64,000 nt of DNA, taken from NCBI GenBank assembly GCA_902771735.1, contig CACXXO010000009.1, forward strand, positions 1-64,000, given 5' to 3'. The DNA comes from an uncultured Bacteroidota bacterium. GTDB taxonomy: Bacteria > Bacteroidota > Bacteroidia > Bacteroidales > P3. Made by a program: the position numbers and the translations under genes. The notes under the pieces are model-generated. The model worked only from the letters and a program-made list of their open reading frames with translations, was not told the origin of the DNA and did not search any database. Shown piece after piece: positions 9,881 to 48,131 of the stretch; positions within the stretch are counted from its first letter, which is position 1, and each line of letters starts with the position of its first letter.

Positions 9881-10765
9881 TTAGTCGATATAGCGTTTTG
9901 TGATGTCGCCATAGCTGTCAATGCGGCGGTCGCGGAGATAGGGCCAATGGCGACGGTAGTGGTCGGTTTGGTTGAGGTCGAGTTCTTCGACATGGAGTGC
10001 TTCCTCGAGGTGGGGAGCCTGATAGAGGATGCGGCCGAAGGCGTTGGTGATGAAACTGCCGCCCCAGAACTGCATTCCCCCTTCCCTACCCGTACGGTTG
10101 ACGGAGACGACGGGGACGCCGTTGGCAACAGCATGGGAGCGCTGAATAGTCTGCCAGGCATCGTACTGTTCGCGGTTGTCGTGTTCGTTCTGACGGACAT
10201 CCCAGCCAATGGCGGTGGGATAGAAGAGTATCTGGGCACCCATGAGGGCTGTGATGCGAGAAGCCTCGGGATACCATTGGTCCCAGCAGATGAGGACGCC
10301 GAGGGTGGCAAAGCGGGTATGAAAGACTTTGTAGCCGAGGTCTCCAGGGGTGAAATAGAACTTCTCGTAATAGCCGGGGTCGTCGGGGATGTGCATCTTG
10401 CGGTATTTGCCGAGGTAGGAGCCGTCGGCATCGATGACGGCGGTGGTGTTGTGGTAGAGCCCTTCGGCACGCTTTTCAAACATGGAGCAGACGATGACCA
10501 CCCCCAATTCTTTGGCGAGGGCCATGAAGTGCTGAGTGGTGGGTCCCTCGGGGATGGGTTCGGCAAGGGCGAAGTTCTCATAGCGCTCTTCGTCGCAGAA
10601 ATAAAGGGAGGCAAAAAGCTCCTGGAGGCAAATGATTTGCGCACCGTCGGCGGCAAGCTGACGAACTTTCTCTGTGTAGCGCTCGATGTTGGCGGCTTTG
10701 TCGGCCACGCAACTCATCTGGGCGATTCCAACTTTGACTTTGTTGACGAGATTTTCTTTTTTCAT
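9881..10765 (-). CDS. aguB: N-carbamoylputrescine amidase
   Basis: Hydrolyses N-carbamoylputrescine to putrescine, CO2 and ammonia. Nitrilase-superfamily fold with the Glu-Lys-Cys triad visible at Glu49 (CLQELF), Lys123 (YRKMHIP) and Cys160 (LICWDQWYPEA). I start at the ATG at 10765 (MKKENLVNKVKVGIAQ), which gives 294 residues, the usual length. A longer frame reaches 10852 but runs through a Bacteroidota-type promoter (-7 box at 10820-10827), so the extension is very unlikely to be translated. It is the first gene of a four-gene minus-strand run with aguA, the S41 protease and the BspA-like protein. Confidence 0.95.
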   Translation of the reverse strand: MKKENLVNKVKVGIAQMSCVADKAANIERYTEKVRQLAADGAQIICLQELFASLYFCDEERYENFALAEPIPEGPTTQHFMALAKELGVVIVCSMFEKRAEGLYHNTTAVIDADGSYLGKYRKMHIPDDPGYYEKFYFTPGDLGYKVFHTRFATLGVLICWDQWYPEASRITALMGAQILFYPTAIGWDVRQNEHDNREQYDAWQTIQRSHAVANGVPVVSVNRTGREGGMQFWGGSFITNAFGRILYQAPHLEEALHVEELDLNQTDHYRRHWPYLRDRRIDSYGDITKRYID

Positions 10766-17061: not shown

Positions 17062-17238
17062 AATCCTTATATATTTTAAGACTTTATTCTTTTGTATTGA
17101 GATAACACAAAAAATTGCATTTTATTGTATAGAATGTTAAATTTTTTATGTTAATTGAGATTTTTTTTCTCGAGCCATCCTCCCCGCACCTCCCTCCCGC
17201 CCCCTTGCCACCCTCTTGGTTGCATCGCCCTACCAATA

Positions 17239-17296
17239 CCCTACCAACGCCCTACCAACTCCTACCGTGGTAGGAGTTGGTAGGGCGTTGGTAGGG
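17239..17296. repeat. CTACC palindrome, copy 1 (58 bp, perfect)
   Basis: Perfect inverted repeat with 28-bp arms around a central GT. The core is CCAACTCCTACC-GT-GGTAGGAGTTGG. It lies 28 bp downstream of the stop of the HTH protein gene (17325). In RNA it would form a very stable hairpin. Related copies are at 30610-30700, 39653-39708 and 48021-48076. The remaining DNA between 17062 and 17238 is AT-rich with no gene that I can support. Confidence 0.95.
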
Positions 17297-17324
17297 CGAT
17301 GATAGGTAGTTAATACCTTGAGGG

Positions 17325-30609: not shown

Positions 30610-30700
30610 ACCTACCATCACCCTACCATCCCCCTACCAACACCCTACCAACTCCTACCGTGGTAGGAGTTGGTTAGGAGATGGTAGGGCGTTGGTAACT
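30610..30700. repeat. CTACC palindrome, copy 2 (imperfect)
   Basis: Same centre as copy 1 (ACTCCTACC-GT-GGTAGGAGT); the first 13 bp of each arm pair perfectly, then the right arm has an extra base and substitutions. The left arm carries more CCTACC repeats than any other copy. It is about 105 bp after the M28 peptidase stop (30806). The gap 30477-30805 otherwise holds the arcC promoter and palindrome copy C; no gene is seen. Confidence 0.85.
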
Positions 30701-30756
30701 GGTTTATAGGTATTTGTACGCAAGCGTACCGAAAGCCGTTTTCGACCCATTCTGTA

Positions 30757-34294: not shown

Positions 34295-34410
34295 CCCAAT
34301 TCTCTCGAAGTTCAGCTAAAAAGCAGATTATCAGATTGCGACCGTAGTAGAGCAAACTGCTGTGGATCTAATTAACGACTAATAATACGATAATTCGTGT
34401 TAAAGAAAGA

Positions 34411-34443
34411 GTCAACTCTGTGTCAACCCCGAGTCAACTCCGA
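34411..34443. repeat. Three tandem 11-bp repeats, GTCAAC(T/C)C...
   Basis: GTCAACTCTGT, GTCAACCCCGA and GTCAACTCCGA start at 34411, 34422 and 34433, an exact 11-bp period, close to one DNA turn. It could be a protein-binding array. The nearest gene (transporter) ends at 34517 on the minus strand. Confidence 0.65.
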
Positions 34444-34516
34444 GAAATTAACATTTGTCCAAAAAATCTTAACATTCAAACAATGTACTGCGTCAGCTTC
34501 GAGTAATTGGTCCTAG

Positions 34517-39520: not shown

Positions 39521-39652
39521 TCATAAACTTATAAAAATTTTGTACAGTACCTGCCAATCGCAATACAACAGACAATGAATCAGCGATTTGACCATTGTAT
39601 TTTTTATTACCGACGACGAAGTGGGAAAGTCGTCCGAACGACCTATCAAATA

Positions 39653-39708
39653 CCTGTCAACGCCCTACCAACTCCTACCGTGGTAGGAGTTGGTAGGGCG
39701 TTGACAGG
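39653..39708. repeat. CTACC palindrome, copy 3 (56 bp, perfect)
   Basis: 27-bp perfect arms around GT at 39680-39681. Compared with copy 1 the outer part is CCTGTCAACG on the left and CGTTGACAGG on the right, so both arms changed together and pairing is kept. It lies about 110 bp after the yebC stop. Confidence 0.95.
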
Positions 39709-39764
39709 GTGTTCGTAGGCAGATAATACTGACCTACAGCCTATTAAACCCATACAAACAGCAA

Positions 39765-39798
39765 AAGCGGCACTTAACCATTTGGTTAAGTGCCGCTT
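39765..39798 (-). terminator. Hairpin terminator after yebC
   Basis: Perfect 15-bp stem (AAGCGGCACTTAACC) with a 4-base loop, 20 bp after the yebC stop. On the minus strand it is followed by TTTTGC, a short T run, so it may terminate only partly. The gap 39444-39817 also holds the 39491 promoter and palindrome copy 3; no gene. Confidence 0.75.
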
Positions 39799-39817
39799 AG
39801 ATGGTAAAAAAGCCAAT

Positions 39818-45267: not shown

Positions 45268-45299
45268 TCTTTATTCCACATTCTTTATTTCAAAAAAAA

Positions 45300-45674
45300 A
45301 TAGCATGGGTCTGTAAGCCGGGTTCTGTCGTGTTCTATCATCAATCTATGACCGCCGTCACCGACGGCCTCTATCAACCTACCCCCCAATAATGCAGGCG
45401 AGCCTGCCCGCTGCCCGAAGGCTTATTGGTATATTTGGTCTTTCAGCCCATGAGGCTTGCCATCGTGCGCGTCACCGCGTCACGTCGTGGGCTCTTACCC
45501 CGCGTTTTCACCCTTGCCTTTTTTATTCTCGAAAGGCGGTTTCTTTTCTGTGGCGCTTTCTGTAGCCCTGCCCTTACGGACAAAACCCCTTCCCGTTAGG
45601 AAGCATGGTGGCTCGAGCTGCCCGGACTTTCCTCTCGGCATCGCTGCCCAGCGATAGAACGGCCCTTGCTATTT
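45300..45674 (-). ncRNA. rnpB: RNase P RNA
   Basis: Catalytic RNA of RNase P, which removes tRNA 5' leaders. On the minus strand the conserved 5' element GAGGAAAGTCCGGGC appears near 45640 and the 3' element ACAGAACCCGGCTTACAGA near 45315-45330. The ends pair as P1 (ATAGCAAGGG with CCCATGCTAT) and are followed by a T run (A at 45292-45300 on the plus strand), which would terminate it. A -7 box is at 45682-45689. Small ORFs within it are not genes. Confidence 0.96.
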
Positions 45675-47288: not shown

Positions 47289-48002
47289 CTACACTGCCGA
47301 CAGGCCGACAATCACCGCCGCGCCGTCGACCACACGGAATTTCACCTCTCTGTCGCCAAACAGCATGCCGTATTCCCGCCCGGGGTCGTCCTGATAGTGC
47401 GGCCGGGGATCCTGGGCCAAGGCTTTCCTCAGCGCATCGGCCTCGCCATCAGGCATTCCCGACAAGCATCCTTCCGGATCGCTCACCGTCAGCAACTCGC
47501 GCGGTGCCTCGGCGGCAAACCCGCTGCGGGCGTCCTCATGGCTGTCGGCATAGGCGACATAGGGCTTGATGTCGAAAATGGGCGTACCGTCGACGAGGTC
47601 GGCGCCGGCCACCGTGAGCACAGGCCCGAGCCCCGGCTCCGTGCCGACATGCAACAGCCTCACCGACGACAAGCCTATGGGATTGGGTCTGAAGGGACTC
47701 CGCGAGGCGAAGACCCCCACCCTTTTGTTGCCGCCCAGGCGCGGCGGACGCACCGTGGGACTCCAAGACTCCTCAGTTTTTATACTCTTGGACTTTTCAT
47801 CTTTTTGACCATTTAAATGGAACCCCCAGAGGAGCCACACAAAGTCGAAACCCTCCAGTCCGCGGACCGCCTCCGCCACCCTGTATCCGGGTTCGAAAAC
47901 CACCCTGCAGGGCACCTCTAAGAGCCCTGCCTGACGCGGAACACCGAATTTCGTCTTAAACGGCGTCTCAATGTGTGCTATTTGCTTAAGTTCGAGTACC
48001 AT
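47289..48002 (-). CDS. trmO: tRNA (N6-threonylcarbamoyladenosine37-N6)-methyltransferase (TrmO)
   Basis: Methylates t6A37 in tRNA with SAM. The start MVLELKQIAHIETPFKTKFGVPRQ is the family opening; later RPPRLGGNKRVGVFASRSPFRPNPIGLSSV and GTPIFDIKPYVAYADS are the core. 237 residues from ATG 48002; five extra codons up to 48017 are only repeat DNA next to palindrome copy 4. The C-terminal third is the additional domain ending VVDGAAVIVGLSAV. Confidence 0.93.
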   Translation of the reverse strand: MVLELKQIAHIETPFKTKFGVPRQAGLLEVPCRVVFEPGYRVAEAVRGLEGFDFVWLLWGFHLNGQKDEKSKSIKTEESWSPTVRPPRLGGNKRVGVFASRSPFRPNPIGLSSVRLLHVGTEPGLGPVLTVAGADLVDGTPIFDIKPYVAYADSHEDARSGFAAEAPRELLTVSDPEGCLSGMPDGEADALRKALAQDPRPHYQDDPGREYGMLFGDREVKFRVVDGAAVIVGLSAV

Positions 48003-48020
48003 ACATCTACCTACCATCTA

Positions 48021-48076
48021 CCTACCAACACCCTACCAACTCCTACCATGGTAGGAGTTGGTAGGGTGTTGGTAGG
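48021..48076. repeat. CTACC palindrome, copy 4 (56 bp, perfect)
   Basis: 27-bp arms and a self-complementary AT centre (CTACCATGGTAG). Compared with copy 1 the arms have CAACACCC on the left and GGGTGTTG on the right instead of CAACGCCC/GGGCGTTG, a paired change that keeps the stem. It is between the TrmO start and the reductase stop, with palindrome copy D 55 bp to the right, as copy C accompanies copy 2. Confidence 0.95.
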
Positions 48077-48131
48077 GGGTTGGTAGGGGGTTTATATTAA
48101 CATTATTCCTTTCATTTGTCCTCTTCCGGGA

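Follow-up and report, generated by a model that had tools for sequence, protein, structure and literature searches.

Four long palindromes lie between the genes of the 64,000-nucleotide stretch of Bacteroidales DNA analysed here (the window), and they raise the question of what kind of element they are and why the chromosome should carry them. An earlier note had described them as a dispersed palindrome with arms much longer than those of ordinary terminators, and on this point our analysis agrees. When the arms were remeasured all four palindromes were found to be real and where the note had placed them, with the long perfect arms and two-base centre that it ascribed to three of the four exactly at its coordinates; in the fourth, element 2, the arms continue imperfectly past the perfect part and the outer units are imperfect (Table 1). 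The bit scores in the table are those of matches to a covariance model, which missed the possible fifth array. The 12-mer half-site occurs 20 times in the window at up to two mismatches, 8 times without any, where 4.7 occurrences would be expected; none of 100 shuffles reaches 20. Searching the whole window against Rfam at gathering thresholds gave a sole match, to the class A RNase P RNA, whose gene is at 45298-45670 on the minus strand (243.5 bits, complete model match); the elements match no known RNA family in that search. A separate 16-bp perfect hairpin at 39765-39798 (AAGCGGCACTTAACCA), some 60 bp beyond element 3, is probably an ordinary terminator, and the match that it gave (39745-39817, 27.5 bits) was dropped before the spacing test described below.

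Table 1. Palindromic elements and a further periodic array in the window
Feature	Position	Strand	Core or word	Centre	Perfect arms	Score	Remarks
Element 1	17223..17312	.	core 17255-17280	GT	17239-17296 (28 bp)	105.4 bits	11-bp-unit dyad
Element 2	30616..30705	.	core 30648-30673	GT	30647-30674 (13 bp)	90.8 bits	
Element 3	39636..39725	.	core 39668-39693	GT	39653-39708 (27 bp)	98.7 bits	
Element 4	48004..48093	.	core 48036-48061	AT	48021-48076 (27 bp)	105.6 bits	
Possible fifth, weaker period-11 array	34401..34444	.	CCGAG-type word GTGTCAACCCCGAGTCAACTCCGAG				lag-11 match at 23/33 positions; left out of the spacing test

The genome-wide search that the note had proposed takes the family far beyond the four copies of the window. 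With up to three mismatches the 26-bp core is found at 116 sites in the 2.29 Mb draft source genome (37 contigs, 96% complete), where a reversed control pattern of the core gave none. Nor is the palindrome an artefact of a single assembly, since among the matches listed the exact core recurs in separately named assemblies titled RUG156, RUG429, RUG153, UBA2939, RGIG4993, RUG14564 and RUG11969. The titles of these exact-core assemblies are Bacteroidales or Bacteroidetes and one names the roe deer rumen; RUG presumably also denotes rumen assemblies. In a comparison of 41 genomes the core was counted 116 times in the source genome, 121 in G021, 26 in G007, 17 in G002, twice each in G013 and G014 and once in G022, and was absent from the other 18 of the 24 congeners and from all 16 genomes of other genera. 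The covariance model has matches in 27 of 59 congeners. A phage origin was considered and rejected, the exact core being found in no stretch of the viral collection.

Overlaying 48 perfect-core copies from the source genome without gaps revealed a unit of 11 bp, roughly CCAACNCCCTA, that is oriented towards the centre on both sides, with conservation declining outward across about 50–60 bp. In the 697 kb of source contigs read whole there are 58 elements, of which 46 retain the core at no more than 3/24 mismatches. The centre is purine–pyrimidine in all 46 (GT 20, AC 15, AT 9, GC 2), and the perfect arms most often end at 27 or 28 bp (14/46) and are longer in only two. The core is invariant in the covariance model because the model was built from perfect-core copies, 50 of the 130 distinct ones. 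At the unconserved N position (columns 27 and 64), however, the two sides are paired in 38 of the 50 sequences, with four pair types. The covariation score over the 38 tested pairs is 0.113, compared with 0.085 (sd 0.006) in shuffles and 0.034–0.057 in slid versions, changes on both sides occur at 16 pairs (48/500 shuffles reach as many) and further pair types are no more numerous than in shuffles (314/500 have as many); two of the five covariation measures are unexceptional, and kinship among the sequences can inflate the others. Pairing where the sequence has no preference indicates that a strand folds at some stage or that one arm serves as template for correcting the other.

Beside some arrays, usually on one side, there is an outer box, CTTAGTATCAGGCAGTTA, whose direction along contig C1 is not constant. 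It scores at least 14/19, a value to which shuffles rarely get, in 19/98 cases in the source genome, 13/80 in relatives, 5/10 in G062, 1/24 in G044, 1/3 in G015 and 0/21 in G011. From roughly 49 kb to 153 kb of source C1 several elements carry, where others have TAGG, a word of CGG type (GTCGGAGTTGG, TACGGAGTTGG), so that words vary along one chromosome. The period-11 arrays at C1:3760 and C1:178437 have a CCTTCTATAAC-type word and stand outside the CTACC family.

The same array design is built from other words in the congeners: AGTAGGNGTTG and TTGTTCTTCGA in G044, GTCGGAGTTGT, ACGGTAGTATT, GGTAAGTCGTT and others in G011, and GACGGAGGTGA and GTCAATACTAG in G062. Three of the seven congeners sampled have clear period-11 arrays of other words and a further three have weaker ones; several arrays in G062, G015 and G020 are direct repeats without a palindrome. 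A word-free scan of source C1 and C2 over lags 6–23 found 26 sites at lag 11, 8 at its harmonic, lag 22, 9 at lag 7 and 5 at lag 9, with none at lags 8, 10 or 12. Lag 11 is also prominent in G044 (12 sites, the next lag having 2, lag 22 aside), G062 (7, next 2) and G011 (11, next 6); it is not clearly above other lags in the unfiltered scan of G020 (2), G004 (3) and G015 (1), and the 17.9 kb of G017 gave no lag-11 sites. A looser, filtered scan gave 5 lag-11 sites in G004 and 4 in G015 against at most 2 at lags 12–20; because this filter by its design removes lags of 10 and below, the controls are the unfiltered scan and lags of at least 12. In a further scan at a looser threshold there are 58 lag-11 sites in the 697 kb of source and 49 in 610 kb of congeners, and other lags rise in the source as well (19 at lag 12, 17 at 21, 15 at 18, 12 at 15 and 8 at 10). 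Sampling of 16 other genera in the order, 325 kb in all (2.4–40 kb per outgroup genome), gave no lag-11 sites.

Some arrays appear layered. In G044, six of the 12 arrays are near-identical TTGTTCTTCGA palindromes, some of them flanked by 11-mers of another type (e.g. TCAAGTCCGTATCAACACCG), and one array in G011 mixes two words. This suggests that new words enter arrays at the centre. In the source, C/(C+G) at the diagnostic column is 5/137, 7/105 and 5/40 for units 1–3 and 15/27 for unit 4, an outward layering that is suggestive only because unit 4 overlaps an outer box. On contig C4 of G011, at 9947, 36486, 57192, 96586 and 132788, are near-identical, almost perfect palindromes of about 110 bp with sharp ends (CCTCCGCCATTTT...AAAATGGCGGAGG), one end being altered at 96586; these suggest the recent spread of one word family.

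Within the window all four elements sit between two minus-strand genes, element 4 directly upstream of the predicted start of the gene at 47289-48002 (minus strand). The earlier note had taken from this that each copy lies 3' of a minus-strand gene. That is true of the four, but 50 of the 52 predicted genes in the window are on the minus strand and the rule reflects this; over the 58 elements, the flanking genes are tandem for 28, convergent for 7 and divergent for 23. What does hold widely is the avoidance of genes. None of 79 distinct copies in the source genome lies within a gene predicted by the dicodon script written for this analysis (38 tandem, 28 divergent and 11 convergent intergenic regions, and 2 contig edges), and all 58 elements are intergenic in 697 kb with a coding fraction of 90%. 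Taking the intergenic regions of at least 100 bp, 28/106 tandem, 7/18 convergent and 23/48 divergent ones are occupied. Two congener arrays, at G011 84690 and G015 67556, overlap predicted genes.

The elements are also evenly spaced. The set used consists of matches to the covariance model of at least 30 bits on 697 kb of contigs that were chosen rather than random. C2, C12, C13 (60 of 60.7 kb), C16 and C21 were taken because listed copies are dense there, and C1 because its first 116 kb was without listed copies, the whole reading then giving seven; the window completes the set, and C4–C8, C10 and others are outside the set. The 51 within-contig gaps between the 58 elements average 10,680 bp (sd 4,282, minimum 4,403, maximum 23,779), a coefficient of variation (CV) of 0.40. 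Random placement in intergenic regions of at least 100 bp, weighted by length, gives an average CV of 0.90, and none of 5000 placements was as low as 0.40; about 12 gaps below 4 kb would be expected at random and none was seen. With placement restricted to regions of at least 150, 200, 250 or 300 bp the P values for CV are 0, 0, 0.00075 and 0.00375 (4000 draws each), so the distribution of intergenic DNA does not account for the regularity. Before the test three period-11 sites that the model set does not contain (C1:3760, C1:178437 and window 34400) had been dropped. Adding window 34400 would bring the smallest gap to about 3.8 kb and adding C1:3760 the largest to about 35 kb. On other contigs there is no gap below 6 kb among the matches listed, where weaker copies may be missed.

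Even spacing is seen, within the stretches read, in five of the six genomes tested including the source. The arrays of G044 (n=12, CV 0.39, P 0.0006), G011 (n=15, CV 0.28, 0/5000 random placements as regular), G062 (n=8, CV 0.26, P 0.0076) and G004 (n=5, CV 0.30, P 0.0094) are regular, and in G015, from which one A-rich site (9655) was removed ahead of the test, the spacing is not significant (n=6, CV 0.59, P 0.19). About six words could be told apart by eye in G011, and all 14 of its neighbour gaps (4.0–13.9 kb) join arrays with different labels, one of them mixed. The spacing therefore seems to act across words, and in G044 too arrays of different words are spaced from each other.

That different words can occupy one place is seen most clearly upstream of dnaA, where the source has an element about 600 bp away. 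We examined 30 dnaA loci (source included), drawn from 38 genomes of the genus with a DnaA match. Nine of them (G000, G002, G003, G004, G007, G008, G009, G021 and G022) have a period-11 array 495–690 bp upstream of the predicted dnaA start, a weaker tenth array is found at 225 bp in G053, and in 20 the flank read contains no array; a further A+T-rich match in G003 at a stricter setting was left uncounted. About six words are represented in the nine, the CTACC type in four and CCGTACCAATT in G003, CTACGGGTTTA in G008, GCCGTAGGAAA in G022, TTAGGATATGC in G009 and GGTAGGTATCT in G004 in the others. Partial Y1_Tnp-like domains (model positions 27–121) lie within about 2 kb of dnaA at G002:C3:74588 and G021:C32:25057; the Y1_Tnp-like matches have near-identical scores (compare G061:C46:1597 and G071:C3:158735), and the source has none above cut-off.

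Relatives with the same core mostly carry it at the same positions. For conserved adjacent gene pairs at 78 exact-core loci of named genomes the element is in both genomes in 23 cases, in the relative only in 2, in the source only in 1 and in neither in 38, the figure of 23 being inflated because these loci and 40 of the source loci used were selected for carrying an element. When source flanks were projected onto relatives an exact core was no more than 350 bp from where it was expected in 53/59 cases and was missing in 6/59, several of the projections being redundant (one genome under two names, or several source loci on one relative locus). Many flanks have diverged while the core is identical, in an ungapped comparison for which core identity was the selection rule. 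At larger distances synteny with G044, G062 and G004 offers too few informative gene pairs. Three adjacencies with an element in either genome were informative, one shared (G062) and two occupied in the source only (G062 and G004).

An explanation has to start from what is directly observed, namely the anatomy of the arrays and the covariation of their arms, intergenic placement, even spacing, positions shared among same-word relatives and different words upstream of dnaA. The account we prefer, at rather less than even confidence, is that the elements are chromosome-organising DNA sites, inverted 11-bp iteron arrays bound by a predicted, fast-evolving protein that anchors, bridges or partitions the nucleoid. 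Such a DNA-level site is favoured by the even, domain-scale spacing, the intergenic placement, the fixed near-helical period and the homogeneity of words within a genome. Arrays of inverted units, about one per helix turn, would be set between genes roughly every 10 kb; an oligomerising, sequence-specific DNA-binding protein would load on the iterons and, once loaded, would act on the nucleoid at the scale of topological domains. The protein's preferred word may drift between species, with the arrays switching word in concert, while the period would persist through the change and so would position where it can be compared. That 46/58 source elements have one core argues for a sequence-specific binder, and that the period is fixed and the word free argues for helical phasing or curvature. 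Intrinsic curvature may add an effect of its own, as a plectoneme pin. In a wedge-model estimate the 44-bp halves of the source elements are deflected by 51 degrees, compared with 25 when base-shuffled and 34 for other intergenic DNA, and the values against base-shuffled sequence are 56 and 31 in G044, 39 and 30 in G011 and 58 and 32 in G062. This support is tempered since any near-helical period partly raises curvature and the difference in G011 is small. Published work fits such a scale and period: diffusible supercoils move within 10 kb domains (PMC3420936), an 11-bp period is commonly linked to negatively supercoiled DNA (PMC4132750) and plectonemes are pinned by DNA curvature (PMC6301789).

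Several observations weaken this organising role. The spacing in G015 is not significant, lag 11 is weak in G004, G015 and G020, 20 of the 30 dnaA loci have no array, two of the three informative distant adjacencies are occupied in the source only and 6/59 projections are empty. The spacing evidence itself is tempered by the choice of contigs, most of them rich in listed copies. With several words in one genome there would have to be several binding proteins, or one of relaxed specificity, and the pairing of the arms at an unconserved position means that a strand is folded at some stage, for which plain double-strand binding has no need. A broader form of the proposal, in which 11-bp arrays resembling satellites mark the chromosome throughout the genus at intervals of about 10 kb and exchange their word per species from the centre outward with positions and period kept, seems to us a possibility on the doubtful side. 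The array design across species may nevertheless point to an unrecognised chromosome-marking system; in the literature searched, which covered few subscription journals, we met no account of 11-bp arrays that are evenly spaced and differ in word between species.

Among the rivals the strongest is that the elements form a mobile family subject to target immunity, a property known from Mu, Tn3 and Tn7, since such a family would also yield even spacing and homogeneous words. Selfish, MITE-like palindromes would spread in each genome and be kept apart by immunity, with new families entering or replacing older arrays. The word homogeneity of 46/58 elements, the near-identical copies of the G011 ACGGTAGTATT family with its sharp ends and of the G044 TTGTTCTTCGA family and the 6/59 flank projections onto relatives without an element are all as expected, and it is possible that some word families, such as ACGGTAGTATT in G011, are mobile. 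As a general account we consider it somewhat unlikely, because same-word relatives mostly share positions (23, 2 and 1), no target-site duplication was seen by eye in the G011 copies, different words occupy one place upstream of dnaA and the 11-bp period is common to all families read. A search for the Y1 family found no Y1 transposase in G000 or G044. The earlier note's report of no RAYT in the window extends to the 96%-complete draft genome, which has no Y1_Tnp match above cut-off (best 17.6 bits against 23). Y1_Tnp is present in 40/59 congeners, including the core-rich G002, G007, G021, G051 and G061, and absent from the array-rich G000 and G044; scattered in this way, its presence or absence does not track the arrays. 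On both grounds a RAYT/REP origin was rejected as a sufficient account. Absence of Y1_Tnp alone is not decisive, as CGTC REPs, repeats of which occur in some Bacteroidetes, are likewise without a dedicated transposase according to PMC3733652. The note's analogy with mobile or REP/BIME elements is insufficient in view of the mostly shared positions, the regular spacing and the same architecture with other words elsewhere.

Alternatively, the DNA might act through structure, a curved 11-bp-periodic array pinning a plectoneme at domain scale and perhaps extruding a cruciform with no dedicated protein. The free word and fixed period, the predicted curvature above base-shuffled sequence in the source, G044, G011 and G062, the spacing of about 10 kb and the long palindromes with a two-base centre would all suit this, yet it leaves unexplained both the single core of 46/58 source elements and the purine–pyrimidine centre in 46/46, and we think it unlikely. 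Less likely again is that the elements insulate transcription units, as two-way and perhaps Rho-dependent terminators or as RNA-processing hairpins at operon ends. By eye the centre-ward unit is C-rich and G-poor in the source, G062 and one G011 family, and mismatches in the transcript sense are G–U in 53 cases and A–C in 34, which as an RNA-level signature falls short of significance (P 0.053). Several words are not C-rich, however, several arrays have no palindrome, divergent regions are occupied more often than tandem ones and insulators would not predict even spacing. An intrinsic terminator, a G+C-rich hairpin and T run after a gene 3' end, is disfavoured because no T run adjoins the stem in the four window copies and 23/58 elements are divergent. 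The words might instead be tags of self DNA that mark kin, and species-specific words on a common architecture do recall the uptake-sequence dialects of PMC3630211, but with about one multi-unit array per 10 kb this is very improbable.

Returning to chromosome-organising sites, whether bacterial topological domains have fixed boundaries encoded in sequence is a long-standing question, and discrete arrays about 10 kb apart with a near-helical period and natural word replacement would allow a direct test. If true, they would also be a bacterial example of concerted, species-specific turnover in a chromosome-wide set of sites, which is known mainly from eukaryotic satellites. Should the arrays prove selfish, the rule that spaces them would still be a striking case of target immunity.

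Among known systems REP/BIME elements (GTAG and CGTC families, PMC3733652) are similar in being many short intergenic palindromes, and the CTACC word contains GTAG; the arrays differ in their 11-bp units, even spacing and lack of a RAYT in the genome. REP/BIME elements are placed mainly downstream of coding sequence between tandem or convergent genes, whereas 23/58 arrays are between divergent genes. GTAG lies within the CTACC-type unit, and so occurs in the stem as well as in the outer units to either side of it, with no separate tag seen at one end; GACGGAGGTGA and TTGTTCTTCGA are among several words without it. MITEs are likewise palindromic, non-coding and homogeneous in word, but here relatives mostly share positions, the ends of the CTACC family are fuzzy and the spacing is even. 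The 11-bp periodicity of genomes, tied to supercoiling or protein sites in PMC1242344 and PMC4132750, has the same period but is a whole-genome statistical bias, as opposed to discrete, evenly spaced and strongly repeated arrays. Sites with a dedicated protein offer a further comparison. matS and parS are dispersed palindromes bound by such a protein, their single-site words being limited to a domain or to the origin region; the elements here, for which protein binding would be a prediction, form arrays that recur about every 10 kb in the contigs read. The parC locus of plasmid R1, one of the iteron centromeres, has direct 11-bp repeats in opposed sets within one array. Source C1 and C2 have direct repeats of this parC-like kind, the 26 sites at lag 11 standing against no more than 9 at each of the remaining lags between 6 and 23, but here a chromosome carries more than a hundred arrays. 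A change of word would be in keeping with adaptor proteins that co-evolve and, were words indeed replaced from species to species, the arrays would be a bacterial parallel to fast-evolving, layered centromeric satellites and their co-evolving binding proteins.
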